DNA of 47,253 nucleotides from the NCBI GenBank assembly GCA_003171065.1, contig PMXQ01000094.1:1-47253 (forward strand), in the 5' to 3' direction. Source of the stretch: Chloroflexota bacterium (lineage in GTDB: Bacteria > Chloroflexota > Limnocylindria > Limnocylindrales > CSP1-4). How positions within the stretch are numbered: position 1 is the stretch's first letter; each line of letters begins with the position of its first letter. The notes below the pieces were generated by a model. That model was not told the DNA's origin, ran no database searches, and saw only the letters and a program-made list of their open reading frames with translations. Both the position numbers and the translations under genes were made by a program. Shown one piece after another: positions 6,663-46,628 of this stretch.

Positions 6663-9376
6663 CGGGCGATCGCTTCGGGTCGCTGCGCCTCGCGCCGGTC
6701 GAAGATGCGCTTGACGATCTCGATGAGGGTCAGGTAGGCGACCACCAGGACGACCAGCAGCGGCCAGAACTGCCACGGCAACGCCCCAAAGCCGAGCACC
6801 GATCCGAGGGGACTGACGGGAATGATCACGGCTGCGGCGAGAGCCGCCACAATCGCCGCCCCGAGCTGCCTGCTGGGCCGGCTCCGCCAGAACGGCGTCA
6901 TGCGGGTGCGGATGACCAGAACCACCAGTATCTGGGTGAATAGCGACTCGACGAACCAGCCCGTGTGGAACGAGCTCTCGTTCGCGGCGCTGGTGCCGAG
7001 CATGAGGAGCAGCACGCCGAAGGTGGCGTAGTCGAAGACCGACGAGATCGGTCCGAAGACGATCATGAAGCGTTCGATGGCGTGCACGTCCCAGCGGGCC
7101 GGCTCGGCTTGCACGTCCGCGTCCACGTTGTCCGTCGGAATCGCCGTCTGGGATGCGTCGTAGATGAGGTTGTTGAGCAGGATCTGGCTGGGCAGCATGG
7201 GCAGATACGGCAGCACGAGCGCGGCCCCGGCCATGCTGATCATGTTGCCGAAGTTGGAGCTGGTGCCCATGCGGATGTACTTGAGAGTGTTGGCGAAGGT
7301 GCGGCGGCCCTCCGTCACGCCCTGGCTGATCGCCGCCAGGCTCGGCTCGAGGAGGATGATGTCGGCCGCGGAACGGGCGACGTCTGTCGCGTTGTCGACG
7401 CTGATGCCCACGTCGGCCACGTGCAGCGCCGGGGCGTCGTTGATGCCGTCGCCCATGTAGCCGACGACGTGCCCGGATTCCCGCAGAGCGCGGATGACCT
7501 GGAGCTTCTGGTCGGGATCGACGCGCGCGAAGATCGTGGTGCGGGGCGCCCGGGCCACCAGCGCGGGGTGGGTCAGCTTGCGCATCTGGTCGCCGGTGAG
7601 GACGCCGTCGACTTGCAGCCCGACCAGCTCGGCTACATGGCGGGCGACCAGATCGTTGTCGCCGGTGATGATCTTGAGGGCGATCCCCTGGTTGGCCAGG
7701 TCCGCAATCGCCTGTCCGACGTCCGGCTTGGGCGGGTCGCTGAAGAGGATGACGCCCTCGAAGGTGAGGTCGCGCTCGAGCCGAGATGCGTCGGCAAGGG
7801 CGACGGCTGCCGTCGGAGCCGGAGCCGTCGCGGCGGAAGTCGAGGCCTTCGCGGCGGAAGTCGAGGCCTTCGCGGTGGAAGTCGAGGCCTTCGCGGCGGA
7901 AGTCGAGGCCGCCGCGGCGGAAGTCGAGGCTTGCATGCCGGTCAGCTCATCCGGCCGCAGCACTCTGGAAGCCACCGCGACGAGCCGGAAGCCGTCGGCC
8001 GACGAGCCGTTGACGAGCTTGGCCAGCCGATCGTGCTCGGCCTTGTGAATCGATCGCGCCGTGTGGTCCTCTCGGACGCTGCTCGAAGCGGCGACCACGG
8101 CCTCCGGCGCGCCCTTCGTGATCAGCAGCGGCGGCTCGTCGCCGCGCCGGACGACCACGCTGAGCATCCGCCGGTTGAAGTCGTAGGGCAGTTCCGCGAG
8201 CTTCTTGTACTTTCCCAGATCGGCCGGCTTGGGCGCGCTTGCCAGCACCGCGGTGTCGAGCGGATTCTGGAAGCTCGATTCGAAGTAGCTGTTCAGGTAG
8301 GCCAGCCCGAGCGCCGCGGACGCTTCTCCGGCGTCGTCCTTGTCGATGCCGACGGCCTTCACCAGCTCGAGCTTGCCCAGCGTCAGGGTGCCTGTCTTGT
8401 CCGTGCAGAGGACGGTGACGCTGCCCAGGTTCTGTATCGCCGGCAGCCTCTTGACCAGGACGCCGTGCGCGGTCAGGGCGCGCGCGCCGCGGGTCAGGTT
8501 GAGGGTCACGATGGCCGGCAGCAGCTCGGGCGTAAGACCGACAGCCAAGGCAATGGAGAAGAGCAGGGCGTCGAAGAGCGGCCGCTGCCGGGCCACGTTG
8601 ATGGCGACGACGCCGACCACGAGGATTAGCGTGACCCGGCCGATCAGCAGGCTGAAGGCGCGGACGCCATGCTGGAAGTCGGTCTCGGGCGCCCGTTCGG
8701 CAAGCCGGTGGGCGATTGCCCCGTAGCTGGTCCTCGCGCCGGTGGCCGTGACGAGGGCCGTTCCCGTGCCGCTCACCACGCTCGTCCCAAAGAAGGCCAG
8801 CCCGGCTCGATCATCCTCTTTGTCCGGATCGAGCACGCCGGGCCGAGGCGTCTTGAGCGCGGCGGCAGACTCGCCGGTCAGCGACGACTCGTCGATGAAC
8901 AGGTGGTTGGCATCGAGCAGGCGCGCGTCCGCCGGCACGATGTCACCCGCGCCAAGTACCACGACGTCGCCGCGGACGACGTCGTGGATGAGGATCTCCT
9001 GCTGCTTGCCGTCCCTGACTACCGTGGCGCGCAACGCCAGGCGAGCCTGGAGCGCGGCCACGGCCGCCTCGGAGCGGGCCTCCTGGACGAAGCCCAGGAG
9101 CGCGCTCATCACGACGATGGCCAGGATGATGCCGGCCTCGACGCGATCGCCGACGATCAGGCTGACCACGCTGGCGGCTACGAGGATCAGAACCAGCGGA
9201 CTGGCGAACTGGCTGATCAGGACCCGCAGAGGTCCGCGGCGTCCCTCGCTGCCCAGGGCGTTGGGACCGTCCTGGCGAAGTCGTTGGGCCGCCTCGGCCG
9301 AAGTCAGGCCGCCGGATGCTGTCGAATCGTCGGGCGAGGCCGCGGATGCCTGAGGTACGGACGGCTGGGTAGTCAT
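6617..9376 (-). CDS. mgtA: Magnesium-translocating P-type ATPase (MgtA type)
   Basis: 919-residue P-type ATPase of the IIIB/MgtA group, importing Mg2+ across the cytoplasmic membrane. The actuator motif LTGES, phosphorylation motif CTDKTGTLT (Asp near residue 325), nucleotide-domain KGAPEAV and hinge motif GDGINDAPAL are all intact. Hydrophobic pairs lie before the actuator and after the hinge (for example RTFANTLKYIRMGTSSNFGN). The ATG at 9376 has an upstream CGGAG at good spacing; the longer open frame upstream has no homology-like content. A 21-bp minisatellite inserts five ASTSAAK-like units into the nucleotide-binding region. The gene is convergent with the TIM-barrel gene, overlapping it by 46 bases, and divergent from the uracil permease. 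No Mg2+-sensing leader was recognised. Confidence 0.95.
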   Translation of the reverse strand: MTTQPSVPQASAASPDDSTASGGLTSAEAAQRLRQDGPNALGSEGRRGPLRVLISQFASPLVLILVAASVVSLIVGDRVEAGIILAIVVMSALLGFVQEARSEAAVAALQARLALRATVVRDGKQQEILIHDVVRGDVVVLGAGDIVPADARLLDANHLFIDESSLTGESAAALKTPRPGVLDPDKEDDRAGLAFFGTSVVSGTGTALVTATGARTSYGAIAHRLAERAPETDFQHGVRAFSLLIGRVTLILVVGVVAINVARQRPLFDALLFSIALAVGLTPELLPAIVTLNLTRGARALTAHGVLVKRLPAIQNLGSVTVLCTDKTGTLTLGKLELVKAVGIDKDDAGEASAALGLAYLNSYFESSFQNPLDTAVLASAPKPADLGKYKKLAELPYDFNRRMLSVVVRRGDEPPLLITKGAPEAVVAASSSVREDHTARSIHKAEHDRLAKLVNGSSADGFRLVAVASRVLRPDELTGMQASTSAAAASTSAAKASTSTAKASTSAAKASTSAATAPAPTAAVALADASRLERDLTFEGVILFSDPPKPDVGQAIADLANQGIALKIITGDNDLVARHVAELVGLQVDGVLTGDQMRKLTHPALVARAPRTTIFARVDPDQKLQVIRALRESGHVVGYMGDGINDAPALHVADVGISVDNATDVARSAADIILLEPSLAAISQGVTEGRRTFANTLKYIRMGTSSNFGNMISMAGAALVLPYLPMLPSQILLNNLIYDASQTAIPTDNVDADVQAEPARWDVHAIERFMIVFGPISSVFDYATFGVLLLMLGTSAANESSFHTGWFVESLFTQILVVLVIRTRMTPFWRSRPSRQLGAAIVAALAAAVIIPVSPLGSVLGFGALPWQFWPLLVVLVVAYLTLIEIVKRIFDRREAQRPEAIARQKARTFRRPSASSQ
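7830..7934 (-). repeat. Five-copy 21-bp tandem repeat inside mgtA
   Basis: Units at 7830-7850, 7851-7871, 7872-7892, 7893-7913 and 7914-7934 share gcggcggaagtcgaggc plus four more bases. Units 1 and 2 are identical, unit 3 has one change, and units 4 and 5 differ at the end. They encode Ala-Ser-Thr-Ser-(Ala/Thr)-Ala-Lys-like heptads on the minus strand without breaking the frame. Confidence 0.92.
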
Positions 9377-9658
9377 GTGGCTCCGATGCTGACCTTCGGG
9401 TGGCCGCGATCCAATGCCCAGTCCATGACCCCGCGGCGCGGCCTGCCTGCCCGTATATTGCCAGCATGGGCCCGGCAGGGCACGCGCCGCCGGGCATGGG
9501 GACGAATCGCCCAAGTTGCCCACCGTTTACCCACACAAGGCTACGCCGCGGGCGCGCGAGAGCCGGCCCTTTTTGCGACCCTAATCGGACGCCCGGGTGC
9601 CCTGACGCAAGGGACCGTCACGCCCGGGGGAGAGCTCTTAGGTCGGAGGAGGTCGCTC

Positions 9659-10990
9659 ATGGCTGCTGCCATCGGGTATGTCCGTGGCATGTTCCAGTGG
9701 ACCGTCAAACGGGAAGGCATCATCGCCCCGGACGAGCGGCCGCCGGCCGGGCAATCGGTGGCGCTGGGCATCCAGCACATCTTCGCCATGTTCGGGGCGA
9801 CGGTGCTGGCGCCGATCCTCATGGGTTTCAACCCGAACACGGCCATCTTCTTTTCTGGCATCGGGACGCTGATCTTCTTCGTCTTCGTCCGCGGCCGCGT
9901 TCCGAGCTACCTCGGCTCGAGCTTCTCGTTCATCGCCGTCGTCATCTCGGCTGAGGCCATCGGCGGCGGTCACAACATCGCCGTCGCCCTAGGCGGCATC
10001 GTCGCCTGCGGTGCGGTATACGCAGTGATCGGCCTGATCGTCATGGCGGTCGGCTACAAGTGGGTCGAGTTCCTGATGCCTCCGATCGTGACCGGTGCGG
10101 TCGTCGCGGTCGTCGGCCTGAACCTTGCCGGGTCCGGCGTCGGATACATGACCAACGGTCGCGCGGCCGGAGACAACTTCGGCATCCTCGTCGGCATCAT
10201 CACCGCCCTCGCGGTCGCGATCGTCGCCGTCTACGCCCCCGGAATGCTGCGCCGGCTGCCGATCCTGATCGGCGGCATCTTCGGCTACCTCCTGTACGGC
10301 CTGCTCTCGAACATCCTCCATTTCGGCGGCCCCTACATCGACCTCAACTCGATCGGCGCCGCTCCCCTGATCGGCTGGCCGGCACTGACCGCGCCGACGT
10401 TCGACATGCATGCCATCACGCTAATCGTCCCCGTCGCGATCGTGCTCGTGGCCGAGAACCTTGGCCACATCAAGGCCGTCGCCACTATGACTGGGCGCGA
10501 CCTGGATCCGTACATCGGGCGAGCCTTCCTCGCCGACGGCGTCGCAACCATGATCTCTGGCTCGGGCGGCGGCACCGGCGTCACCACCTATGCCGAGAAC
10601 ATCGGCGTCATGGGCGTCACCAAGATCTACTCCAGCCTCGTGTTCGTGATCGCGGCCGTAGTAGCCGTCCTTCTCGGCTTCTCGCCGATGTTCGGAGCCC
10701 TCGTGCTCTCCATCCCACAGGCCGTCCTCGGCGGCATGGCCATCGTCCTGTTCGGACTGATCGCGACCACTGGCGCGCGCATCTGGGTCGAGAACAAGGT
10801 CGACTTCACCGACAACAAGAACTTCATCACGGCCGCCGTTGCCCTCACGCTCGGCGCCGGCAACCTGGTCATCACACAGGGCGACTTCTCGGTCGGCGGC
10901 ATCGGCACCGCCTGCATCGCCGCGCTGCTGCTCTACCAGATCCTCAACAAGTTCGGGATGGGCAAGAAAGAGGAGGCACCCGCCTCCTGA
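9659..10990 (+). CDS. uraA: Uracil permease, NCS2 (UraA) family
   Basis: 443-residue nucleobase:cation symporter of the NCS2 family in the inner membrane. It shows the family opening LGIQHIFAMFGATVLAPI, the QSVALG and GSSFSFIAVV segments, the substrate-region VAENLGHIKAV and the signature SGSGGGTGVTTYAENIGVMG. This NIGVMG form is typical of uracil rather than purine transporters. GGAGGAGG lies about six bases before the ATG. It converges on upp, encoding the enzyme that traps imported uracil as UMP, and both genes end at a shared hairpin. That pairing supports a uracil-uptake role. Confidence 0.94.
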   Translation: MAAAIGYVRGMFQWTVKREGIIAPDERPPAGQSVALGIQHIFAMFGATVLAPILMGFNPNTAIFFSGIGTLIFFVFVRGRVPSYLGSSFSFIAVVISAEAIGGGHNIAVALGGIVACGAVYAVIGLIVMAVGYKWVEFLMPPIVTGAVVAVVGLNLAGSGVGYMTNGRAAGDNFGILVGIITALAVAIVAVYAPGMLRRLPILIGGIFGYLLYGLLSNILHFGGPYIDLNSIGAAPLIGWPALTAPTFDMHAITLIVPVAIVLVAENLGHIKAVATMTGRDLDPYIGRAFLADGVATMISGSGGGTGVTTYAENIGVMGVTKIYSSLVFVIAAVVAVLLGFSPMFGALVLSIPQAVLGGMAIVLFGLIATTGARIWVENKVDFTDNKNFITAAVALTLGAGNLVITQGDFSVGGIGTACIAALLLYQILNKFGMGKKEEAPAS

Positions 10991-11009
10991 GTCAACCCCT
11001 CGCAGAATC

Positions 11010-11063
11010 GAAGCGGGCGGCCCCGGCTTTCGCACAAGCGATCGCCGCAAGGCCGCCCGCTTC
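11010..11063. terminator. Shared bidirectional terminator between uraA and upp
   Basis: Perfect 13-bp arms GAAGCGGGCGGCC (11010-11022) and GGCCGCCCGCTTC (11051-11063) flank a 28-base loop, between the two convergent stops at 10990 and 11084. The right side is followed by a TCTTTC tract. Confidence 0.7.
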
Positions 11064-11083
11064 TCTTTCGCGAGGAACTGGGG

Positions 11084-11758
11084 CTACCCCGCCCGGCCCG
11101 TCCCGAACTGGCGGTCGCCGGCGTCGCCCAGGCCCGGCATGATGTAGCCGTGCTCGTTGAGCTGCCGGTCCACGGCCGCGCAGTAGATCTCGACGTCGGG
11201 ATGGGCAGCGGTCACGACGTCGACGCCTTCGGGCGCCACGATCAGGTTGACCAGTTTGATCCGCGTCGCGCCCCAGCGCTTGAGGACCTCGATCGCCGCC
11301 GTGGCCGATCCGCCGGTGGCGAGCATCGGATCCAGGATCAGGCACAGGTCCACCGTCGCCGAATCCGGCAGCTTGTTGTAGTACTCGACCGGCCGCAGCG
11401 TCCGCTCGTCGCGGAAGAGGCCGAGGTGCCAGACCTCGGCCGTGGGCATCAGCTCGAGCATGGCGTCGACCATGCCCAGGCCGGCCCGCAGGATCGGCAC
11501 CAGGCCGATGCGCACGCCCAGCTCGTGAGCGTCGGTCGTCTCGATGGGCGTGGTGACGGTGAGGGGGCGGACCTCTACATCGGCCAGCGCCTCGTAGCCG
11601 AGCAGCCACGATAGCTCGCGGACAACTTCGCGGAACTTCTTGGGCTCGGTCCTCTCGTCCCGCAGGATCCGCAGTTTGTGAAGGATCGCGGGATGCCGCG
11701 ACACGTGAAGCGTCGGCCAGGCGTTATCGCGGACCGGCAACGGAGAAGGTTCGGGCAC
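11084..11758 (-). CDS. upp: Uracil phosphoribosyltransferase
   Basis: Cytoplasmic salvage enzyme converting uracil and PRPP to UMP. Its 224 residues are slightly longer than the usual ~208-210, mainly at the N-terminus. Typical features are [16 protein letters not shown], the [10 protein letters not shown] loop, and the PRPP-binding stretch [13 protein letters not shown], followed by the uracil-site [16 protein letters not shown]. The start is a GTG at 11758 with GAGGAG about seven bases upstream. It faces the uracil permease gene across a shared terminator, forming a complete uracil salvage pair. Confidence 0.96.
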
Positions 11759-11942
11759 TTGGTTCTCCTCCTTGACGCGTTCGACCGCTATTGGCGCCTA
11801 TCGTACGAGCAAGGCCACTGCATGCGCTCGGCGCCCGGGCGTGGCCACTGGCCACGGCCACGGCCGGGACGGCGGAGCGGGGCGGGCCAGCTGGGGCGCC
11901 GAGCTACGGCCAGGGGCGTGGCCGGTCCGGGGCGGCTGAAAC

Positions 11943-12914
11943 TCAGCCGATCGGGGCCGAGCCACGGCCGAAGGGTCGGGGCAAATGCTGGAGGTCGCCG
12001 GCCAGCTCCGACCAACCGCCACTCAGCACCTCGCGAACCTCACCCCACCTCCGCACTCCCAGCAGCGGCAGCGTGCCGAGCATGATGCTCAAGCCGCCGT
12101 ACCAGAGCGCCGGCAGGGCGAGCATCGCCGAAACGGGCACCGTCCAACGGTGGTTCCTGCGGGCGCCCCACACGACCAGAACGACGGCGAGCGGGAAGCG
12201 CACCAGGAACGGAACCGGGACTGCGGCCCAGGTCCCGTTCTTGCCGGCGTTCGAAACGAGGACGTCGCGCCACGCCAGCCACGCGTTCGGCTGGATCGCC
12301 GCCGAGACCGCCACGACCGCGACCGTCGCGGCGAGAGCGATCGCCAGCGCGCGCCATTCGCGGCGAACCGCGAACCAGAGCAGGCCGATGCCAGGTGTGA
12401 CCTTGGTGAGCAGGACGAATGCCCAGGTCGCCGGCCAGCGGAACCCGAGGACGATCGCCAGCGCGATGAGCAGCTCGATGTTGCCGCCCCAGATCTCCAT
12501 CAGGCCGAAGAAGACGAGGCCAAGGAGGATGAGCCGCGGCCCGGTCAGGTAGACCATCGCGGCCATCAGGATCGCGGCCCAGATGGCCATGAACAGCTGC
12601 CACGGCAGCAGCCGAATCGGCTGCAGGATCTGCAGGAAGGCAGGCGAGTACGGATACGCGATCTGATCGGTCCAGGTCGAATTCACGTACGGGTTCGAGA
12701 GGTCCGGAGCCCAGTAGCAGCGCGCGTCCATGCCCGAGCCGGCGAGGCGGCCCCACGGTTCGGCGAAGTAGACGATGCCGATCCAGGCGGCTGCGAGGGC
12801 GATCAGCCCGGCGACCACGACGACCGGCACGCGGCGCCCGGCGAGCGCGACCATGCGCTCGTTCGAACTGCTCAGTTGGCTCTCCTCTGCGCTGGCTCCC
12901 GCCCTGCCGGCCAT
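11943..12914 (-). CDS. GT87/DUF2029-like polytopic membrane glycosyltransferase
   Basis: About 323-residue hydrophobic protein with 8-10 predicted membrane spans, resembling the alpha-mannosyltransferase GT87 (DUF2029) family, which uses polyprenyl-phosphate sugar donors on the outer face of the membrane. Loop features include DARCYWAPD after the first span and AYPYSPAFLQIL, which match the early acidic and aromatic loops of this family. The start is uncertain: ATG at 12914 is used, GTG/ATG starts at 12944 and 12851 are possible. It lies on the same strand as the aminomutase-like gene, separated by a small tandem repeat. Two further relatives occur at 30.3-32.6 kb. Substrate is unknown. Confidence 0.72.
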   Translation of the reverse strand: MAGRAGASAEESQLSSSNERMVALAGRRVPVVVVAGLIALAAAWIGIVYFAEPWGRLAGSGMDARCYWAPDLSNPYVNSTWTDQIAYPYSPAFLQILQPIRLLPWQLFMAIWAAILMAAMVYLTGPRLILLGLVFFGLMEIWGGNIELLIALAIVLGFRWPATWAFVLLTKVTPGIGLLWFAVRREWRALAIALAATVAVVAVSAAIQPNAWLAWRDVLVSNAGKNGTWAAVPVPFLVRFPLAVVLVVWGARRNHRWTVPVSAMLALPALWYGGLSIMLGTLPLLGVRRWGEVREVLSGGWSELAGDLQHLPRPFGRGSAPIG

Positions 12915-12959
12915 CCTAGCACCGGGTCGACTGCCGGGCGCCACGCCCTACGCTCGCCG

Positions 12960-13001
12960 GCCGGCGATCGACCCGCCGGGGCCGGCGATCGACCCGCCGG
13001 G
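12960..13001. repeat. 21-bp direct tandem repeat
   Basis: GCCGGCGATCGACCCGCCGG plus one G occurs twice in tandem (12960-12980, 12981-13001) and a partial third copy follows. It lies between the glycosyltransferase start and the stop of the aminomutase-like gene. Confidence 0.85.
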
Positions 13002-13021
13002 GCCGGCGCGTCGCGGCTCGA

Positions 13022-14692
13022 TCAGGTCAGGCCGGCCAGGAGCCGGGCGCTCGAGGTGGGGCCGGTGGCACGCTCGACGACCGCGCCGCGGCCGAATGGT
13101 TCGGCCTCGTGGCCGCGTCCGGCGGGCCCGAGCACACTCCCCCACCCTTCGCCGGCGAGACGCTCCAGCGCAGCGTTCGCGGCGCGCAGCGTCCGCGTCG
13201 CCAGCTCCGCCGCATCTCCGTGCAACGCTCCGTCGCCCAGCGCCGCCCGCAGAGCTGCGGCCGTCGAAGCGGCCGCTCTCAGATCCGCGGCGGATTCGGA
13301 GACGCTGCCTGCGGCCCTGTCCCTGACCACGAGCGATGCCGCGGCCCCCGAGAGCGCCGTCACGAGGGCCGAGGTTCGGCCGTGTGGCTGGCTGTCGGCC
13401 CGTGGCTCGCCGAGAACGAGGCGGTGGCCCGGAAAGACGAGGCGCCGCAGCCAGGCCTGGACGAGGATCGCGCGCGCGTTGCCGTCCCCGACGACCCAGT
13501 CCGGCACCGCGCCCAGCAGCAGCCGATCCGCGGCGAGACCGTCGGCGAGAGCCAGCTCCACGCCCAGGGCCTGAAGTGCGAGGGCTCGTCCGGCCCGCGT
13601 CGCGGCCTCGGAAGGAATGCCGCTCGCCAAGTCGGCGCCGAGCGCCAGCGGCCCGGGGCCCATAACGACCCGGCAACCGGCCCGCGCGTGAAGCCAGTGC
13701 GCAAAGGCGTGGTCGGCCAGCGCGCGCTCCGGATCGACGTTTTCCTCGACGATCTCGCGGATCGGATCGGCCTCAACCAGGTCGATCCGCTCGAAGGCAG
13801 CCACGACGGCCTGCTCGGGCGCGGCGAAGGCGGAGGTAACCGTCATCAGGCTGGCGTAGCAGCCGCGTTCCGCGGCCGCGTCATCGGCCGCTTTCCGAAG
13901 CGCGGCCAGACCCCGCTGACTGCCGGCCGGGACCTCGTCGCGCTCGAACCGCTGCGGGGGTGCCGAACGCGCCCAGGCGCCGCGACGCCGACCGGTCAGT
14001 CGCTCGACGGACCCACGAGCGCCGGATCTTCTGCCGCCCTTGCCCGACCGCCCCTCGACCTCGAAGAGCCCGGGCGTCTCGAGGCCCGCATGCCGCCGGG
14101 CCTCGGCGAATTCCCAGCTGGCCGGCACTCGAATCTGGACGACGTCGGCACCCTCCCCGACGAGCGCCTTCGTCTCCTCTGCTGCGGGCCCCACCTCGGC
14201 CGCCTGCAAGGCCACTCCCAGCCAGGGCTCGCCGGCCAGCCCCAGCACGTCCCGCATGTCCCGGGCGGCGGTCCTGTTGGCGTCGAATCGGGCCAGTGCC
14301 GCGGCCAGCAGCCGCGACGCGTGCGCCTCGGCGGCTGCCAGTCGCCCGGGTCGGTCCAGAAGCTCGGCCTCGAGCCCGAGGTCGATCGCGCCCGAGGCCA
14401 CCTCGAGCCCGAGGTCTCGAGCGGACAGGTCGTATTCGAGCAGGGCCACGGCGAACGGCAGGATCACACCTCTGGCCAGCCGGTCCCGATCGGGGCTGCA
14501 GTACCGCTCCGCCATCGATGCGGCCAGCGGGTGGCCGGCTCGATCCAGGCCGTCCACACCGACCATGCGCAGCATCGCGCGCTCCTGCGCGATCGTGGCC
14601 GAGCGGCGCGCCGCGGGAGAGAGTCGCGCCGCCAGATCCGCCGCGCGCCGGCGAACGGCCTCGACCTCGCCAGAGACGGTGCTACCGCTCAC
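13022..14692 (-). CDS. Divergent lysine 5,6-aminomutase alpha-subunit (KamD) homologue
   Basis: 556-residue protein aligning by eye along most of its length with KamD/LysAM alpha subunits (~516 residues), TIM barrels that carry adenosylcobalamin and help bind PLP. Matching stretches include RMVGVDGLDRAGHPL, LVGEGADVVQIRVP, LRKAADDAAAERGCYASLM and AFERIDLVEADPIREIVEEN. The usual CNYCSGLCMPE-like segment is replaced by MTVTSAFAAPE, so catalytic competence is doubtful. A charged Gly/Arg insert lies near residues 215-260. No beta subunit (KamE), reactivase or lysine-pathway genes are nearby. The GTG start has GAGGTG five bases upstream. It could be a true mutase with remote partners, or a repurposed barrel. 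Confidence 0.65.
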   Translation of the reverse strand: MSGSTVSGEVEAVRRRAADLAARLSPAARRSATIAQERAMLRMVGVDGLDRAGHPLAASMAERYCSPDRDRLARGVILPFAVALLEYDLSARDLGLEVASGAIDLGLEAELLDRPGRLAAAEAHASRLLAAALARFDANRTAARDMRDVLGLAGEPWLGVALQAAEVGPAAEETKALVGEGADVVQIRVPASWEFAEARRHAGLETPGLFEVEGRSGKGGRRSGARGSVERLTGRRRGAWARSAPPQRFERDEVPAGSQRGLAALRKAADDAAAERGCYASLMTVTSAFAAPEQAVVAAFERIDLVEADPIREIVEENVDPERALADHAFAHWLHARAGCRVVMGPGPLALGADLASGIPSEAATRAGRALALQALGVELALADGLAADRLLLGAVPDWVVGDGNARAILVQAWLRRLVFPGHRLVLGEPRADSQPHGRTSALVTALSGAAASLVVRDRAAGSVSESAADLRAAASTAAALRAALGDGALHGDAAELATRTLRAANAALERLAGEGWGSVLGPAGRGHEAEPFGRGAVVERATGPTSSARLLAGLT

Positions 14693-14791
14693 ACGTCACC
14701 TCGCCCTGGGCCGCTCTCCTGCGGTTTGGTTGCAGGGTACCTTCCCCGGGTCCCAGACGGCACTGGACCGACGCCCCGCGTGAGGCTCGGC

Positions 14792-15523
14792 CTAGCGAAT
14801 ACGCAGGTATGACGGATATGCCGCTGTGTCGTAGGCAACAAGCATGGCATTCTGGCCGGCGTTGGAGGCCTCAACCTTGACCTCGAGCTGGTGGCCGACC
14901 GCGAGGGTGTAGGTGCCGGTGACGGTGACCGGGATCGCCCGCAGGTAGAACGTGGTGCGACCCACGGGGTACGTGTAGGTGTCCGTGGCGTTGGCGATCG
15001 CGACATAGGTGCCGCCCGTGGGGTTGTAGTCGCGCAGGTAGGCGACCAGGACTCCGGCATGGTTCGCGGCCGTCGTGTCGGTCGCGGCCCAGATGTCCAA
15101 TGTCACGGTTCCACTGAGAGTCATCGCCGCGGTGAGCGCCGCCGTGCGCCAGTTCTCGTAATCGCACACGGTCGCCTGGGTTGGACTCGGCGCGGCACGG
15201 GTCAGGCGCCGTCCGGCACGGGCGACGCAATCGGTCGAGTACTGATAGAGCGTCGCCGCGGTGGGAACCGTCGCGTTCATGGCCAGGTTGATCTGGGCGG
15301 TGGTGTTGGCGGTCGGCGGAGTGGGGTTGTTGTGCAGGTAGAAGGCCCAGGTCCCGCCGCTGAAGGTGTTGGCCGCCGCGGCCTTCGACTCGGTGAAGAG
15401 GGCGAGGCTGGATCCGGCCTGGGCCAGCAGCGTCGCAAGTGCGAGCGTCACGACGAGCGGCACGCGAAGGCGACGCAGGCTGAACGGCGGCGAGTACGTG
15501 ACTCGCCCGGTGACCACCAGCAT
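14792..15523 (-). CDS. SipW-cognate exported protein with signal-peptidase-derived N-terminus
   Basis: 243-residue exported protein. The hydrophobic signal segment [19 protein letters not shown] leads into SLALFTESKAAAANTFSGGTW, the signature of substrates cut by SipW-type signal peptidases (TIGR04088 class). The mature part is Thr/Ala-rich and beta-like with few charges; no enzyme motif is seen. The first residues, around VTGRVTYSPPFS, match the signal peptidase upstream ([11 protein letters not shown]), suggesting fusion to a remnant of a lost signal-peptidase copy. The ATG at 15523 is 13 bases after the preceding stop; an overlapping ATG at 15574 is possible. It is probably a surface or fibre component, last in the operon. 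Confidence 0.75.
   Translation of the reverse strand: MLVVTGRVTYSPPFSLRRLRVPLVVTLALATLLAQAGSSLALFTESKAAAANTFSGGTWAFYLHNNPTPPTANTTAQINLAMNATVPTAATLYQYSTDCVARAGRRLTRAAPSPTQATVCDYENWRTAALTAAMTLSGTVTLDIWAATDTTAANHAGVLVAYLRDYNPTGGTYVAIANATDTYTYPVGRTTFYLRAIPVTVTGTYTLAVGHQLEVKVEASNAGQNAMLVAYDTAAYPSYLRIR
15361..15475 (-). repeat. Signal-peptide DNA repeat, copy 1
   Basis: 115 bases encoding the signal peptide and LALFTxSKAAxANTF motif; 106 of 115 bases match copy 2 at 15881-15995, counted by eye. Similarity ends abruptly on both sides and the mature coding regions are unrelated. Confidence 0.88.
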
Positions 15524-15536
15524 CTGTCCGGACGCG

Positions 15537-16004
15537 CTAGTGTCCATACAGGCTGCAGACGATGGTGCCCCCACCGGTCGCGGTGTTCGTGCCGTCCGTC
15601 GCCGTGACGGTCACCGGCAGATCGGTCCTCTGTTGGACACCAGCCCCGTCTATGCAGTTCTCCTCGAACGACGTGTTGAACGACCCGTCCGCGGCAGAGG
15701 TCGGGTTCAGGCCATAGTCGCCGAGAGGGATCCAGCCGCCGGTGCCGAACTCGTAGGCGATGATGACGATCTTCAGGCCGGGCAGGAAGCCCGTCCCGCT
15801 GATCGTGTCAAGCAGGTAGCCGTCGCCGCTGGGCGCGACCTTGCTGGCGAACGACACGTTGGGGCCCCAGGTGCCCGTGCTGAAGGTGTTGGCGGACGCG
15901 GCCTTCGACGCGGTGAACAGGGCAAGGCTGGATCCGGCCTGGGCAAGCAGCGTCGCAAGTGCGAGCATCAGGACGAGCGGAACGCGAAGGCGACGAACGC
16001 TCAT
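15537..16004 (-). CDS. SipW-cognate exported protein
   Basis: 155-residue exported protein starting [20 protein letters not shown], followed by [21 protein letters not shown], a SipW-type cleavage context. The mature region has two Cys (FEENCIDG near the middle and TIVCSLYGH at the end) that could form a disulfide outside the cell, and a [14 protein letters not shown] stretch of beta-sandwich character. Its ATG overlaps the signal-peptidase stop by four bases (ATGA) after a GGAGG, so peptidase and substrate are translationally coupled. Signal-peptide DNA is 92 percent identical to the next gene's while the mature parts differ. No family is assigned to the mature domain. Confidence 0.78.
15881..15995 (-). 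repeat. Signal-peptide DNA repeat, copy 2
   Basis: Second copy of the 115-base block described at 15361-15475, in the same orientation and reading frame, starting 520 bases further along. Confidence 0.88.
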
Positions 16005-16582
16005 CCAAGCCTCCCCATCCGCAACGCGTCCAGGGTCCTCGCCAGCTCGCACTCGTACGGTTCCTGTTCCTCTCTGACCGCGTGCTGCTCCAGGTCCTCG
16101 ATCAGCCAGATGCACAGCAGCATGGTGAAGGCCAGTGAGAAGATCGCTAGTACGCCCGTCGGGATGGTCAGCATGTACAGCAGGAACCCCAGGAAGGGCA
16201 ACGAGTACGTGACCCGCCCGGCGACTTCGGATACCGGCTGGAGCGGCGTGTCGGGGTGACCGACCGCGTCGCCCTGGGTTTCGATGTAAAGCCCGCCCGG
16301 CAGGGTGACGATGCGGTCGATGCGGTGGGTGTAGGCGGTCCCCCCGGGCGACTGCACGGTGACTACATCGCCGACCTTGAGGTCCTGAGGCTGAACCCTG
16401 GTGATGTCGACGACTGCCCCCAGCGGGATTGCCGGCGACATCGAGGAGCCCCGGATGACGACCATCCGATGGCCGACGGCGGGGCCGATGTTGGCGGCAA
16501 GAACGAGGGAGAGGACCGACATCACGAGTGCGATGAGGGCCAGATCGAGCAGCCAGCGCGTCAGTCGCAGTGCTGTGCTCAT
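16001..16582 (-). CDS. SipW-like (ER-type) signal peptidase I
   Basis: 193-residue membrane protease, family S26. N-terminal membrane span ([19 protein letters not shown]), then the Ser nucleophile box [15 protein letters not shown], substrate-binding GDVVTVQSP, and the ER-type general-base motif [10 protein letters not shown], where His replaces the Lys of ordinary bacterial leader peptidases. The C-terminal half has [20 protein letters not shown], a second span and a charged cytoplasmic tail. SipW and archaeal/ER enzymes share this His form. It lies between three SipW-cognate proteins, and is inferred to mature them. AGGGA precedes the ATG; the stop overlaps the next start. Confidence 0.92.
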
Positions 16583-16614
16583 CGGTCCCTGCTTGTCCTT
16601 CCTGATTGCCGAAC

Positions 16615-16652
16615 CGCCGGCCGTGACCCGTCGAGACGAGTCACGGCCGGCG
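16615..16652 (-). terminator. Strong hairpin between TasA-like gene and signal peptidase
   Basis: Perfect 13-bp arms CGCCGGCCGTGAC (16615-16627) and GTCACGGCCGGCG (16640-16652) with a 12-base loop that itself contains CGTC/GACG. No U-run follows on the minus strand. It sits within the operon, so it may attenuate read-through or protect the upstream mRNA, giving more exported protein than peptidase. Confidence 0.6.
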
Positions 16653-16672
16653 TCGGTGCAGCCGAAGCGCTA

Positions 16673-17275
16673 CTAGTTGTTCGCCGTCTGCTCGGCATAG
16701 AAGGTGAAGGTCATCGTGGTCGATGCACCCTCGTAGGCGTTTACTGTCAAGAGCGGAAGCGTCGCCCGGAAGCAGAGGGTCTCAAAGAGACCCGCGCCCA
16801 ACATGCGGCCGCCGTTCGGGTGGGTCGCGAAAGTTCCGATCAAGTTGCCTTCGAGGTACGGGACCACGCCGCTGAACAGCGAGGTGCCGGTGAAGGCCGT
16901 GCACGTCGTGCCGCCGACGGCATCCGGCTGGCGGATGGTGACCGTGATCTGCGAGGCCAGGCCCTTGCTGTCCGTGTTCGTGGCGGAGCCAGAGACGGCG
17001 TAGCGCATCTGCGCGGTTCCGGTGTTGGTCACGACGACAGAACCGTTGACGGTGTCGCCCGGCATCATCGTGACGTCGCTCAAGATCGTCGCCGCCGGGT
17101 TGATCCCGATGTGGATCGTGCCGGTGGTGAACGTGTTGGCGGCAGCGGAGACGCTGTCGGTGAACAGGGCCAGAGACATGGTTGCGCCAGTGGCGCTTAT
17201 GAGTGCGGTCCCCGCCATCAGCAGGGCAAGCAGGCCTCGCCTGCGGCGGTGGTGGGTATTCTTCGTGCTCTCCAT
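16673..17275 (-). CDS. TasA/CalY-like SipW-cognate exported protein
   Basis: 200-residue exported protein resembling TasA/camelysin (PF12389) biofilm-fibre subunits in size and architecture. A basic run (HHRRRR) precedes the hydrophobic segment LLALLMAGTALISATGATM and then SLALFTDSVSAAANTFTTGT. The mature part has the family-like feature PGDTVNGSVVVTNTGTAQMRY and a C-terminal beta strand with MTFTFYAEQTANN. Start: ATG 17275, chosen for an AAGGA seven bases upstream; ATG 17290 is possible. It is first in an operon with a signal peptidase and two further exported proteins. A structured leader and a strong downstream hairpin suggest separate control of its level. Fibre formation is inference. 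Confidence 0.8.
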   Translation of the reverse strand: MESTKNTHHRRRRGLLALLMAGTALISATGATMSLALFTDSVSAAANTFTTGTIHIGINPAATILSDVTMMPGDTVNGSVVVTNTGTAQMRYAVSGSATNTDSKGLASQITVTIRQPDAVGGTTCTAFTGTSLFSGVVPYLEGNLIGTFATHPNGGRMLGAGLFETLCFRATLPLLTVNAYEGASTTMTFTFYAEQTANN

Positions 17276-17290
17276 GTTGCAATCCTTCAT

Positions 17291-17824
17291 CTCACGGCCG
17301 GTGGCCGGTACTTCCGGGCGGCCGGCGGCGGGGGCATCCTGCGAAAGTTGCCTTTTGGCACCGATCGCCGGTTTGTGCCCAGCGCGTTGGCGCCATCAAA
17401 CCCCCGAAATGGGGACCTCACAACCGGACCTCAGGGTTTGCACTGCTGGTACGTTGGTCATCTCAAGTTAAGTAGGTGAATCGCCGATTGCGTTGCCGGC
17501 GCGCACCCTGACCATCGGCTGTCCGGCGGTCCTGCTCTGACTCATGCAACAGGCGGGCGGAGGAGCCGGACCAAAGGGGTACCGGGCCGGGGTTCGAATG
17601 ACGATCCACCCTTGGATCGAGAGTCCGCGGCCCCCGCAGGCCCCCTCTCCTCAAGCCGTCCAGCGTCGAGGCCGATTCTTAGTCCGACAGGCTGTATCCT
17701 CGGCCAGGCAGCCGATGCCTCTGGCCGGGTTCGTCGTGCCCTGCTGCTTGCAAGCTGCCGGCGACGGACCGGCGCGCCGATGGCGTTGCCGTAGCACGCG
17801 TCCGAACGAGGCGGCGCGGAGAAG
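17291..17824. other. Intergenic region between TasA-like operon and PilZ gene
   Basis: 534 bases between divergent genes. The left third holds the structured leader described separately. The remainder (about 17480-17820) has no convincing gene: a T-loop-like GGTTCGAAT near 17590 does not fold into a tRNA. A GGAGAAG just before 17825 is the PilZ ribosome site. No clear sigma-70 promoter was found on either strand. Confidence 0.6.
17370..17440 (-). promoter_or_regulatory. Structured 5' leader with mutually exclusive stems upstream of TasA-like gene
   Basis: Read on the minus strand: CAAACCC (17440-17434), then GGGTTTG (17403-17397), then CAAACC (17375-17370). The middle segment can pair with either neighbour but not both, as in attenuators and riboswitches. 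A CCCC/GGGG hairpin lies inside the first option and a GCGC/GCGC hairpin inside the second. No known riboswitch consensus was matched. The leader ends about 95 bases before the start codon. Confidence 0.45.
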
Positions 17825-18529
17825 ATGATCGAAGCAGACGTAAAGCCGGCCGTTCACGATCAAGTTCTCGTCGAGGGCGAGATCGATGGGGAGGTCGTCG
17901 GCCTGCGCGCGGTCATCGTCAACGTGATGCCGACGAGCCTCTGGCTGGGCCTGGTTCGACCGGATGCCAATCTGGAGAAGCTTCGCCCGGATCAGCCGCT
18001 GCACCTGACGTTCAGGCGCAAGGGAGCGGCGATGGTGGCAGCCTCGACATTCCTGAGCCACCTCGGCGCAAGCCGCTCGCGCCTGTTCTCGATTGAATGG
18101 CCGAACGACTTCCAGCTTGTCCAGCGGCGAGCCCACCTCCGTCTGGACGCACAGTGTCCGGTCGCATACACGGTCACCAGCCAGAGCGAAACCGGTAGCG
18201 CCGGCCTGACCGGAAGGGGGACGACGCGCAACATCAGCGCTGGCGGGATCCAGTTCGTCGTTCAGCCTGGCGAAGTGACGGTCGCCCCAGGCGACGAGCT
18301 CGAGATCAGCATCGGCCTGGGTCTGGACGCAGTCGAGGCGGGGGCGGAAGTGATCCGCGTGGAGGAGATCGCCGAGGGCCGCGCCAGGTCGAAAGCCTCC
18401 GCCAAAGTCCCGATGACGTTCATCGCCGTGCGCTTCATCTCGGTCTCGGAGATGACGCAGGACAAGATCGTGCGCTACATCTTCTCGCTGCAGCGGACGC
18501 GGCGAGATGCCGTTCGCAAGCCCGCCTGA
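17825..18529 (+). CDS. PilZ-domain protein (YcgR-like), c-di-GMP receptor candidate
   Basis: 234-residue cytoplasmic protein with a YcgR-like two-part layout: an N-terminal beta domain (residues 1-95) and a C-terminal PilZ domain. Both c-di-GMP motifs are present: RxxxR in QRRAHLRLDA near residue 100, and (D/N)xSxxG in NISAGGIQF near residue 137. GGAGAAG precedes the ATG. It diverges from the SipW/TasA-like operon, and c-di-GMP commonly controls matrix production and motility, so a regulatory link is plausible but not shown. No flagellar genes are in the window. It converges on pheA, with a short hairpin between them. Confidence 0.9.
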   Translation: MIEADVKPAVHDQVLVEGEIDGEVVGLRAVIVNVMPTSLWLGLVRPDANLEKLRPDQPLHLTFRRKGAAMVAASTFLSHLGASRSRLFSIEWPNDFQLVQRRAHLRLDAQCPVAYTVTSQSETGSAGLTGRGTTRNISAGGIQFVVQPGEVTVAPGDELEISIGLGLDAVEAGAEVIRVEEIAEGRARSKASAKVPMTFIAVRFISVSEMTQDKIVRYIFSLQRTRRDAVRKPA

Positions 18530-18561
18530 CGGGTGCGGCGGGCGACCTGGGCTCGGAACCA

Positions 18562-18584
18562 CCGGATCGCACCGGCGGATCCGG
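18562..18584. terminator. Short hairpin between convergent PilZ gene and pheA
   Basis: CCGGATC (18562-18568) and GATCCGG (18578-18584) are perfect 7-bp arms between the stops at 18529 and 18586. It could serve both strands. No T-run is present. Confidence 0.35.
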
Positions 18585-18585
18585 G

Positions 18586-19482
18586 CTAGTCTTCGGCCGC
18601 TCGGTGGTAGACCCCCGCCACCCTGACCATCACGGCTTCGCGCAGAAGGGAAGCGAGCGCCGCGGCGCAGTCGGGCGACTCGGGGTCCGAGTCCATGTCC
18701 GCCCAGAAGACGTATTCCCAGCGCACGCCCCTGCTCGGTCGGGACTCCAGGCGGGACAGGTTGATCCTGCGTTCGGCGAAGCTGCCGAGGCATCGATACA
18801 GGCTGCCCGGGACGTTGCGGACCGCCCAGACCAGGGTCGTCTTCAGCGGACCCGCCAGCGCCGCCGGGACGAACCACGAATCAGGGAGAGGATCGCGCGC
18901 GAGGACGGCGAATCGAGTCCTGTTGGCGTCGCCGGTCTGGATATCGGCGGCGAGCACCTCCAGGCCGTACAACGGGGCGACCCGAGCGGATGCCACCGCG
19001 GCCCCGCCCATCTCGCGCTTCTCGGCGATGGACTTGGCCGCGCCGGCGGTGTTGTAGCTGGTCAGGACCTGCCAGGGTCGGGAGCGCAGGAACTCGTCGG
19101 CCTGGTCCAGCGCCTGAGCGATGCTGTACACGCGCTCGATCTGGTCGAGCGTCTGGCCCGGCAGAGCCAGCAGGGCAAGCCGAACCGGCACCGTCACCTC
19201 GGCCGCGATCCGGATCTCGTCGAACTTGAAGAGCAGGTCGTAGATCTCGCGCACGCTGCCGCCTGCCGATCGCTCGATGGGGACGACGCCGGCATCGACC
19301 GATCCCTCGTGCACGGCCTCGAAGACGGCCCGCCACGTCGGCATCGCAACGGCCTCCGGAGCGGCGAACGCCGACAGGACGCCGTCCTCCGAGAAGGCGC
19401 CGGGCTCTCCCTGGAACGCGACCCGTGGCGAGGCTTTGGGCGGCTCCGGCGTGGACCGAGCTCCGGACGCTGGCGATGCCAT
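18586..19482 (-). CDS. pheA: Prephenate dehydratase
   Basis: 298-residue enzyme converting prephenate to phenylpyruvate in phenylalanine synthesis. The catalytic domain shows VAFQGEPGAFSEDG, GVVPIERSAGGSV (most enzymes have Asn where this has Arg), YNTAGAAKSIAE and the TRF motif in NRTRFAVLAR. The C-terminal ACT domain carries the Phe-binding ESRP motif in LSRLESRPSRGVRWEYVFW, so feedback inhibition by phenylalanine is expected. No chorismate mutase domain is attached. A very strong GGAGGAGGG lies just before the ATG, 15 bases after the cimA stop. It is the last gene of the branched-chain amino-acid operon, an uncommon placement. Confidence 0.95.
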   Translation of the reverse strand: MASPASGARSTPEPPKASPRVAFQGEPGAFSEDGVLSAFAAPEAVAMPTWRAVFEAVHEGSVDAGVVPIERSAGGSVREIYDLLFKFDEIRIAAEVTVPVRLALLALPGQTLDQIERVYSIAQALDQADEFLRSRPWQVLTSYNTAGAAKSIAEKREMGGAAVASARVAPLYGLEVLAADIQTGDANRTRFAVLARDPLPDSWFVPAALAGPLKTTLVWAVRNVPGSLYRCLGSFAERRINLSRLESRPSRGVRWEYVFWADMDSDPESPDCAAALASLLREAVMVRVAGVYHRAAED

Positions 19483-19497
19483 CGAACCCTCCTCCAG

Positions 19498-21174
19498 CTA
19501 GTCGGGGTGCCTGGGCCGGGCGGCGCCGGCCGCCCCGTTGCCCGGCGCGGCGGTGGTGAAATGGCGCTCGTCGCGCCGCCGCACTTCCGCGCCCGTCTTC
19601 CAGATGGCGTACTCCAGTGAGTCGCACAGGGCCTGGCAGGAGGCCGCGATGATGTTCGTGCCGCTGCCCATCGTCGACCATTCCAGGACGCCGTTGGACG
19701 AATCGATGATGACCCGCGTCTGGGCACCCGTGGCTTCCTCGCTGTCGAGGATGCGGACCTTGTAGTCGACCAGGTGCACCGAGTCGAGCTGCGGGTAGAA
19801 GGCGCCCAGCGCCTTGCGCAGGGCGGTGTCCAGGGCGTTGACCGGGCCGTTGCCGTCGGCGGCGGTGTGGAGCACCTCGCCCGCGACCTCGACCTTGACC
19901 GTGGCCTCCGCGAGCAGCTCGGCGCCACCGCGCTGCTCCACCAGAACGGTGTAATCGCACAGCGCGAAGGGCGGTTCGTAGCCGGCCTTGTGGCGCTTCA
20001 CCAGCAGCTCGAACGACGCCTCGGCGCCCTCGAAGGCGAGGCCCTCGGCCTCGAGCTGCTTGATGACCAGGCTGAGCGCCTTCGGATCGACGCCGTCGAG
20101 CTGCTGGCCGAGCTGTTCCGCCCGGAGCTGCGTGTTGGCCTTGCCGCCGAGCTCGCTGACCACGAGGCGCATGACGTTGCCGACCACGGCCGGATCCACG
20201 TGCTGGTAGGCGCTGCTGGCACGGGCCGTGGCCGAGCCGTGGACGCCGCCCTTGTGGGCGAACGCCGAGCGGCCGACGTACGGCTGGTGGTCGTCGGGCG
20301 CGATGTTGACGATCTCGGCCACGTAGCGGGCCATCTCCGTCAGCTCGCCCAGGCGGCCCGAAGGGACGGGCTCGTAGCTGGTCTTGAGCTCGAGGTCGGC
20401 CAGGATGCTGACGAGATTGGCGTTTCCGCAGCGCTCGCCGTAGCCGTTGATCGTGCCCTGGACGTGACGAACGCCGTTGGCGACCGCGGCCAGCGAGTTG
20501 GCCACGGCGAGCTCCGAGTCGTTGTGGCAGTGGATGCCCCACACCACGTCCGCGGCCCCGCCGGCGTGGTCGCCAGCGAGAGCCGCCATCGTGGCCCGCA
20601 CGATCTCCACGAGTTGGTCGGTCAGTGTGCCGCCGTTGGTCTCGCACAGGACGAGGGTGCTCGCCCCGGCGTCCCTGGCCGCTCGGAGAGTGGCCAGGGC
20701 ATAGGCGGGATCGTCCTTGTAGCCGTCGAAGTAGTGCTCGGCGTCGTACACCGTCTCGCGGCCCGCGGCGGCCGCGAAGGCCACGGAGTCGGCCACCATG
20801 GCCAGGTTCTCTTCGGGCGTGGCGCCGAGGACGTCGCGGACGTGGAGCAGCCAGCTCTTGCCGAAGATCGTCACAACGGGCGTGCCGGCGGCCACGATGG
20901 CGACCAGGTTCGGGTCGGTTTCCGCGCGGTTGGAGCGGTGCCGGGTGGAGCCGAATGCCGCGAGCTTCGCGTTCTTCCATTCGATCGACCGGGCGGCCGC
21001 GAAGAAGTCGACGTCCTTGGGGTTCGAGCCGGGCCAGCCGCCTTCGATGTAAGCCAGACCGAACTCGTCGAGGCGGCGGGCGATCTTGATCTTGTCTGCC
21101 AGCGAGACGACCAGCCCTTCTCGCTGGGTGCCATCGCGCAGTGTCGTGTCGTAGAGGATTACGCGGTCGCTCAT
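19498..21174 (-). CDS. cimA: (R)-citramalate synthase
   Basis: 558-residue Claisen-condensing enzyme joining pyruvate and acetyl-CoA, the entry to the threonine-independent isoleucine route. The DRE-TIM barrel shows [15 protein letters not shown], the metal-site [26 protein letters not shown] and [14 protein letters not shown]-terminal LeuA-dimer-like regulatory domain follows (about residue 400 on). Length and motifs fit the CimA group (TIGR00977) better than 2-isopropylmalate synthase, and both are homologous. Its ATG overlaps the leuB stop (ATGA). LeuBCD can process citramalate as well as isopropylmalate, which explains the neighbourhood. Confidence 0.93.
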
Positions 21175-45042: not shown

Positions 45043-45630
45043 ATGGTCGTGGCTCAGGTCTCATCTCCCGAGGTAGCGGACGCGGGCGTTCGCTTCCTTG
45101 CCGAGGTGGGCGCGAAGACCGCAGGCGTCTCGCGCCTCGAGATGTGCATCCAGTGCGGCTCCTGCGGAGGTTCGTGTCCCTCCGCGGATGCCATGGATCA
45201 CACGCCGCGCAGGCTGTTCGCGCTCATGCGCGCCGGCGAGCGTGACGAGGTCCTCCACAGCAACACACCGTGGATGTGCCTCTCCTGCTATCACTGCGTG
45301 GTTCGCTGCCCGCAGGACATTCTCATCACGGATGTGATGTACGCCCTCAAGGTCATCGCCGAAGAGGAGCACACCTATCCGAACAACGTCGGCCCGGATT
45401 TCGCCGGCGTCTTCATCGGCCAGGCGAGGCGCTTCGGCCGCAGCTGGGAGATGGGCCTGACGGCGCGCCACTACCTGCGCCACTACATCCTGCGGCTGCC
45501 GCGCATGACGCCGATGGCCCTGGGCCTCTTGCGTCACGGTCGGATCGGGATCCTGCCCCACCAGATCCACCAGAAGAAGCAGCTGCAGGCGATCCTGCGG
45601 CGCGCCGATGAGCTGGAGCGAGCTCGATGA
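45043..45630 (+). CDS. hdrC: Heterodisulfide reductase subunit C-like iron-sulfur protein
   Basis: 195-residue electron-transfer protein with two 4Fe-4S sites: CIQCGSCGGSCP near residue 35 and CLSCYHCVVRCP near residue 80, each of the CX2CX2CX3CP type. The C-terminal half is basic and helical, typical of HdrC. It is the first of an hdrC-hdrB-hdrA set with 4-base overlaps. In methanogens HdrC passes electrons from HdrA to HdrB; in bacteria such sets serve other disulfide or unknown acceptors. No methanogenesis genes are in view. Confidence 0.93.
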   Translation: MVVAQVSSPEVADAGVRFLAEVGAKTAGVSRLEMCIQCGSCGGSCPSADAMDHTPRRLFALMRAGERDEVLHSNTPWMCLSCYHCVVRCPQDILITDVMYALKVIAEEEHTYPNNVGPDFAGVFIGQARRFGRSWEMGLTARHYLRHYILRLPRMTPMALGLLRHGRIGILPHQIHQKKQLQAILRRADELERAR

Positions 45631-46628
45631 CCAACTACCTCTACTACCCGGGCTGCTCCATGGAGGGCAGCGGCCGCTCCTATCGGGAGTCCCTCGAAGG
45701 GATCTGTGAGCCCCTCGGAATCACCTTCGAAGAGATCGACGACTGGAACTGCTGCGGCGCCACCGAGTACGTGAGCCTGAGCACGACTCCCGCCTACGCA
45801 ATGATCGCCCGCAACCTCGCAATTGCCGCCGGCGAGAGGAAGGGCACCGAGCCCCTCGTGGCCGCCTGCAGCGCCTGTTACCTCAACCTGGCCAAGACGG
45901 ACCACTACATGGGCCAGCAGCCCGCGCTCAACGCCCGCGTCAACGACGCGCTCGGCGCCGGCGGGCTGCATTACGACCCGGGCACGATCAAGGTCCGCCA
46001 CCTCCTCGAGGTGATCCTCAACGACGTCGGCCTGGACAGGGTCAAGGCCGCCGTCAAAAAGCCCCTCACCGGCCTCAAGGTCGCGCCCTACCTGGGTTGC
46101 ATGGTCCCCCGCCCGGACGTGGACGGCGCCTACACCAACCACGAGCAGCCGAACGATCTCGACCGCCTGCTTCGAGCCCTCGGCGCGGACGTCGTGGACT
46201 ACCCGCTCAAGACCGAATGCTGCGGCGGCCACATGACCCAGGTCGCCCCGAAGGTCGGCCTGGAGCTGATCCGGCGCCTGGTGGCGGAGGCCGAGCGGCG
46301 CGAGGCCGTGATGATGGTCACGGTCTGCCCGATGTGCCAGATCAACATCGACGCCTACCAGGGCGAGATGAACGCCATGTTCCACACTCATTACAAGATG
46401 CCGATCGTGTTCTTCACCCAGCTCATGGCCGTGGCCTTCGGCCTCGAGCCTGGCAAGGCTGGAGTCGGGCGCGAGTACACGAACGCGAAGAAGACCCTGG
46501 TGGCGGCCCTGAAGGCGGCCCCCGAGCTGGCGCTCGCTGCCGCCGGAGCAGCTCCGGCGCACAAGCCCAGGCCCGACAAGCGAGCCCTGCCGATGCCGCG
46601 CATGACCGACAGCGAGGTTGAGGAATGA
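45627..46628 (+). CDS. hdrB: Heterodisulfide reductase subunit B-like protein
   Basis: 333-residue protein with two CCG domains (PF02754). First: YYPGCSMEG, WNCCGATEY and ACSACYLNL. Second: YLGCMVPRP, ECCGGHMTQ and VCPMCQINID. These cysteines hold the noncubane 4Fe-4S clusters that reduce disulfides in HdrB, so the catalytic site looks complete. An Ala/Pro-rich tail of about 45 residues follows the usual end. ATG overlaps the hdrC stop and its stop overlaps hdrA (ATGA both), so stoichiometric synthesis is expected. Confidence 0.94.
   Translation: MTNYLYYPGCSMEGSGRSYRESLEGICEPLGITFEEIDDWNCCGATEYVSLSTTPAYAMIARNLAIAAGERKGTEPLVAACSACYLNLAKTDHYMGQQPALNARVNDALGAGGLHYDPGTIKVRHLLEVILNDVGLDRVKAAVKKPLTGLKVAPYLGCMVPRPDVDGAYTNHEQPNDLDRLLRALGADVVDYPLKTECCGGHMTQVAPKVGLELIRRLVAEAERREAVMMVTVCPMCQINIDAYQGEMNAMFHTHYKMPIVFFTQLMAVAFGLEPGKAGVGREYTNAKKTLVAALKAAPELALAAAGAAPAHKPRPDKRALPMPRMTDSEVEE

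Follow-up and report, generated by a model that had tools for sequence, protein, structure and literature searches.

The kamD-like gene of the window, a stretch of 47,253 nucleotides from a Chloroflexota bacterium of the CSP1-4 family (contig PMXQ01000094.1), probably belongs to a family of exapted, cofactor-independent KamD barrels that arose in CSP1-4 from an ancient copy of KamD, the alpha subunit of lysine 5,6-aminomutase. Because five PLP ligands of KamD are lost in all 58 distinct members and a KamE domain is absent, the protein is not a PLP/B12 aminomutase of known mechanism. It would instead work alone, without KamE, PLP or adenosylcobalamin. Two possibilities had been raised when the stretch was first read from sequence alone, namely a barrel repurposed for another role and a new B12/PLP mutase with remote partners. 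Our analyses favor the former; they disfavor the latter, as five PLP contacts are replaced in 58 of 58 members, no KamE domain was detected and the B12 domains are accounted for. If the preferred reading is right, the barrel of a B12 radical enzyme has lost both cofactors and its partner, yet has stayed under selection, and automatic annotation that assigns the name "lysine 5,6-aminomutase" in CSP1-4 genomes would be in error. The protein would then be a concrete case for asking how a mutase barrel gains a new function. The kamD-like family was not described in the literature searched, and the word "aminomutase" was absent from the available part of a paper on CSP1-4 (PMC13212565). Features of the locus are listed in Table 1.

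Table 1 Features of the kamD-like gene and its immediate neighbors in the window
Feature	Position	Strand	Remarks
kamD-like gene	13022..14692	-	556 aa; KamD-fold: N-terminal helices, TIM barrel, C-terminal segment
PASWE, aa 190-194	14111..14125	-	Replaces TTGQS of the KamD PLP-phosphate loop IRTTGQS; Glu194 at the place of Ser189
Arg/Gly-rich disordered linker	13931..14080	-	About aa 205-254; low complexity, variable
GPGPL, aa 345-349	13646..13660	-	Replaces KamD EDN, which contains the PLP-phenol ligand Asn299
GT87-like glycosyltransferase gene	11943..12944	-	Directly downstream of the kamD-like gene; PF09594, 7.8e-8
Upstream gene, probable secreted protein	14792..15574	-	N-terminal hydrophobic segment by eye; PF08530 below cut-off

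Gene, fold and distribution

The reading frame starts with GTG and has the extent first described. PF09043 (Lys-AminoMut_A) is the single Pfam family in the protein (score 96 bits, cut-off 25, E value 2.2e-27, in two blocks), and phmmer matched the protein to the alpha chain of 1XRS (1xrs_A) with an E value of 1.4e-11. Scores were below cut-off for both the KamD equivalog of NCBIfam (NF052384, 90.2 bits against 600) and the D-ornithine 4,5-aminomutase equivalog (NF040743, 11.7 bits against 800). By the NCBIfam standard, the protein is therefore a remote KamD homologue and not KamD. The profile search thus places it with KamD and not in an unrelated TIM-barrel family. A 567-aa antisense ORF (13109-14812, plus strand) overlaps the gene and is taken as a chance GC-rich open frame.

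Over the core of the gene (504-505 codons, six pairs), dN was 0.042-0.192 and dS 0.23-1.13, and the resulting ratio of 0.14-0.18 indicates that the kamD-like gene is real and under purifying selection. The linker (37-51 codons) gave dN/dS values of 0.27-0.96 compared with 0.14-0.18 elsewhere in the gene, and it is much shorter or nearly absent in other genera. In the AlphaFold2 model (26 orthologues in the alignment; pLDDT 87.2, pTM 0.87), residues 211-250 are the sole stretch below 50 (pLDDT approximately 40) and are predicted to be disordered. The Arg/Gly insert recognized in the sequence-only reading is thus present, and it is a drifting disordered linker.

The top three Foldseek matches of the model were three KamD structures. 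VIA-align gave a Z score of 36.0 with 9q1a_C (470 residues, rmsd 2.9) and of 35.4 with 1xrs_A (476 residues, rmsd 3.1). These alignments span residue 2 or 3 to residue 556, and the model resembles KamD in its N-terminal helices as well as in its C-terminal segment. The collinearity with KamD that had been noticed by eye is therefore borne out by the PF09043 match, the phmmer match and the full-length structural alignment; the protein's ancestor is clearly the large subunit of a B12/B6 amino-acid-rearranging enzyme. It shares with KamD (PF09043; 1XRS, 8T0V and 9Q1A) the full-length fold, including the terminal parts, and the scaffold residues, with 23% identity to three Chloroflexota KamD, whereas it lacks five PLP-contacting residues and the KamE partner and carries the extra variable linker. 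The next folds after KamD were OraE, then glutamate mutase and, with other barrels, the small-chain barrels of MCM (Z approximately 18). The barrel is common to the protein and OraE (OraE/OraS, 3KP1; Z 26.4 over 328 residues), but OraE is more distant in sequence than KamD (20% identity) and has its own OAM_dimer and B12 domains, neither of which is found in the 556-aa protein. The likeness to the large chain of glutamate mutase (1CB7 chain B; Z 23.4 over 315 residues, 12% identity) is one of fold, that of a B12-mutase barrel, and a small B12 partner was not identified. Matches to DHPS, IspG and other barrels (Z 17-19) were read as reflecting the common barrel arrangement and not function.

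In a search of 101 genomes, orthologues were present in 47 of 61 genomes of one uncultured Chloroflexota family, taken here to be CSP1-4, and in none of 40 relatives outside it. A scan of genome contigs recovered at least 52 loci, all in MAGs of Chloroflexi/Chloroflexota, Limnocylindrales or, once, Thermomicrobiales, CSP1-4 itself included. A tblastn search of 72,556 plasmid records gave zero matches for the window protein, and a true KamD query matched two of these records. Weak N-terminal PF09043 matches in three genomes (G110, G170 and G349) were set aside; an OAM_dimer domain was found in none of the three, the frame in G110 is interrupted by the contig end, and the ORF overlying the match in G349 is not KamD-like by eye. 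At the start of the G110 contig, from a Chloroflexota genome outside the CSP1-4 family, the contig-edge frame (L053) has a KamD-like N-terminal stretch that scored 28 bits, over the PF09043 cut-off.

Residues of the former PLP site

In lysine 5,6-aminomutase, Arg184, Ser189 and Arg268 contact the phosphate of PLP, Ser238 the pyridine nitrogen and Asn299 the phenol oxygen, Tyr263 stacks on PLP and Tyr236 makes a hydrophobic contact, while in the beta chain PLP and cobalamin are held by Lys144 and His133 (PMC3958899). For comparison at these positions, 74 family rows from two genome collections were reduced to 58 distinct members by removing 16 rows at ≥99.5% identity, and were aligned with three true Chloroflexota KamD and one OraE. 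An Acetoanaerobium KamD from a plasmid-record match served to check the KamD numbering. Arg184, Ser189, Tyr263, Arg268 and Asn299 were all kept in the three true KamD rows, and none of them was kept in any of the 58 members. The position of Arg184 holds Val in 54 members (Thr, Met, Ile and a gap in one each), that of Ser189 holds Glu in 57 (a gap in one), and that of Asn299 holds Pro in 53, Ala in three and Ser in two. The position of Tyr263 is Arg in 25 members and Ala in 22 and is never Tyr, and neither Arg at position 268 nor Tyr at position 236 occurs in any member. Ser238, kept in 23 of 58 members, mostly from the window's genus, is the sole PLP contact surviving in part. On the other hand, the scaffold residues Arg217, Asp221, Tyr230, Glu252, Arg253, Asp255 and Asp260 were kept in all 58 members, and Pro243, Arg274 and Asp278 in 57. 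The Cys-containing core segment of KamD (...LCNYCSGLCMPE...) is replaced by ...LMTVTSAFAAPE... in the kamD-like protein, as had been noted at first reading. Replacement has been selective, affecting the PLP site and leaving the scaffold intact. With Ser189 changed to an invariant Glu and Arg184 to Val, the PLP phosphate pocket would have changed in charge.

Conservation was further examined in a set of 39 members, which omits two sequences cut by contig ends (L025 and L047). No Lys column is conserved, and His328 (38 of 39) is the sole conserved His; neither a PLP lysine nor a typical His/Cys metal site is therefore indicated. Residues that are specific to the family and invariant or nearly so lie in barrel-mouth loops (Pro190, Glu194, the P-x-GSQRGL motif at 255-262, GPGPL at 345-349 and Trp399), and conservation at the mouth clusters after strands 2, 4 and 5. 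The barrel mouth may be used as a new small-molecule site. On average, however, mouth positions have a slightly higher entropy (1.54 bits) than core positions (1.38 bits), and this slightly lower conservation counts against a busy active site.

Gene neighborhood and candidate functions

The kamD-like loci showed two layouts, one in the window's genus and the other in the rest of the family. Neighbors were counted in 18 genus-type and 34 non-genus loci, and 12 further stretches of the same or similar genomes were left out. Antisense open frames among the clusters of conserved neighbors were taken as high-G+C artefacts and were not counted. In 17 of the 18 genus-type loci the kamD-like gene is followed within 140 bases by the GT87-like gene in the same orientation, and the two are syntenic in the genus. 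The gene immediately upstream in the window had homologues in three of 21 loci compared and is not a conserved partner outside the genus. Genes for an S26-type signal peptidase and a camelysin-like (M73) protein lie further upstream; we take the signal peptidase, camelysin-like and probable secreted-protein genes (14792-17290, minus strand) to form a SipW/TasA-like arrangement. At the window end (45043-47251, plus strand), genes for a 4Fe-4S protein and a CCG-domain protein and the start of an FAD oxidoreductase gene presumably represent heterodisulfide-reductase-like HdrC/B/A.

Outside the genus, 30 of 34 loci have a same-strand gene for a MoaD-MoaE fusion upstream of the kamD-like gene, and the other four have less than 370 bases of upstream sequence. 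In one locus (L072) the fusion and the kamD-like gene share one base. Other neighbors in the 34 non-genus loci were a membrane protein (23 loci), an O-methyltransferase (18), a D-aminopeptidase of family M55 (10), an S58 peptidase (6) and a downstream FAD oxidoreductase (4). Those of amino-acid type are a minority feature of these loci and are missing from all 18 genus-type loci. Orthologues thus have conserved neighbors, as the sequence-only reading had proposed to check, namely the MoaD-MoaE fusion outside the genus and the GT87-like gene within it, but these do not include a canonical kamE.

Upstream of the MoaD-MoaE fusion, six loci (L070, L072, L073, L076, L079 and L080) encode an eight-helix membrane protein in which GHWYLVTPKLP and RSMESATGLLYI are invariant across the six sequences. 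No Pfam family matched this companion protein at an E value of 0.01, and the only NCBIfam match scored 13 bits. A fold search with its model (pLDDT 74) gave a weak likeness to chains of alternative complex III, cytochrome bd and polysulfide reductase, with a best E value of 1.3e-3 and none at or below 0.001.

Tentatively, and with somewhat less than an even chance of being right, we suggest that the mutase barrel became an enzyme or ligand receptor that needs neither partner nor cofactor, with a phosphate pocket rebuilt on the invariant Glu, and that this new clade-wide activity of CSP1-4 arose in an operon of molybdopterin synthase and D-peptide hydrolases. Our most likely specific guess, which we hold weakly and consider rather unlikely in itself, is that the protein binds or converts a free amino acid or amine independently of a cofactor. 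This guess comes from a minority of genomes, in which the gene shares a same-strand cluster with the M55 D-aminopeptidase, the S58 aminopeptidase and a gene resembling FAD amine oxidases. An improbable alternative is a role in the synthesis or use of molybdopterin as a partner of the upstream MoaD-MoaE fusion, for which the position of the fusion at 30 of the 34 loci outside the genus, the one-base sharing and the weak likeness of the companion membrane protein to quinone-linked membrane subunits, including the polysulfide reductase chain, all speak. Against this, MoaE (PF02391) was not found in five of five genomes of the window's genus (G000, G019, G011, G002 and G006), although four of these have retained the kamD-like gene, itself under strong purifying selection, and MoaE was present in 10 of 14 CSP1-4 family genomes without the gene. 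As the gene occurs without MoaE and MoaE without the gene, the link between them is not obligatory and the two are separable. MoaC was present in all eight genomes of the window's genus that were tested, and MoaE may have been replaced or have highly diverged there. The guess of an amine or amino acid is weak, as its basis is minority neighbors, and that of molybdopterin has strong but separable synteny behind it.

Partner subunit and B12 domains

The preferred reading, an exapted barrel acting without cofactors, also concerns the partner subunit. The gene had been called an orphan, and no kamE, reactivase or lysine-degradation gene was found among the window proteins given to Pfam (a subset of the ORFs). 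Taken by itself, the lack of a nearby KamE is weak evidence, because true KamD and the KamE domain are on different contigs in two of three Chloroflexota genomes that have both. Absence across the whole genome weighs more. KamE joins the OAM_dimer domain (PF16554) to a B12-binding domain with the Schiff-base Lys. In the window's genome this dimer domain gave nothing over cut-off and a single 13-bit match (E value 0.39). Nor was the domain found in any of 61 genomes tested, 37 of them of the CSP1-4 family and 30 with the kamD-like gene, the window's own included, whereas it was recovered in all three Chloroflexota genomes with true KamD, which served as positive control. The orphan status thus holds genome-wide, and neither a KamE-like gene elsewhere in the genome nor a canonical kamE with its pathway beside the gene in relatives was detected. 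As the window's genome is 88% complete, it could lack a partner gene, but the same gap is hardly to be expected in all 30 relatives together.

B12 domains (PF02310) over cut-off in the window's genome were an MCM-type protein beside a MeaB-like GTPase and a second in a 1391-aa frame, which is probably MetH judging by its length; one further weak match was under cut-off. The genome has one MCM large subunit, and thus no spare B12 domain. Matches of this type numbered one to five each in ten further CSP1-4 family genomes. It is very unlikely that the protein is a PLP-free adenosylcobalamin mutase barrel that borrows from methylmalonyl-CoA mutase its stand-alone B12-binding subunit. Such a subunit is present beside the MeaB-like GTPase, several relatives have two or more such domains, and glutamate mutase and the MCM small-chain barrels are among the nearest folds after KamD and OraE; nevertheless, G000 and G019 each have one MCM large subunit and one stand-alone B12 domain, leaving none spare, and no sequence features point to shared use. 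Least likely is a divergent PLP/adenosylcobalamin aminomutase with a KamE-like Rossmann partner encoded elsewhere, since the complete KamD fold with its N-terminal helices, the separation of true KamD and KamE in two of three Chloroflexota genomes, by which distance as such is normal, and the use of B12 by the host genomes are outweighed by the loss of the five tested PLP ligands in every member, the absence of OAM_dimer from 30 of 30 gene-bearing genomes with a working positive control, and the lack of a conserved lysine.

A separate Chloroflexota genome (G357) encodes an OraS-like and OraE-like pair on contig C98 (L145, positions 8001-20000), in which the OraE-like frame has its own OAM_dimer, and besides this pair it has KamD with a KamE domain on contig C3.
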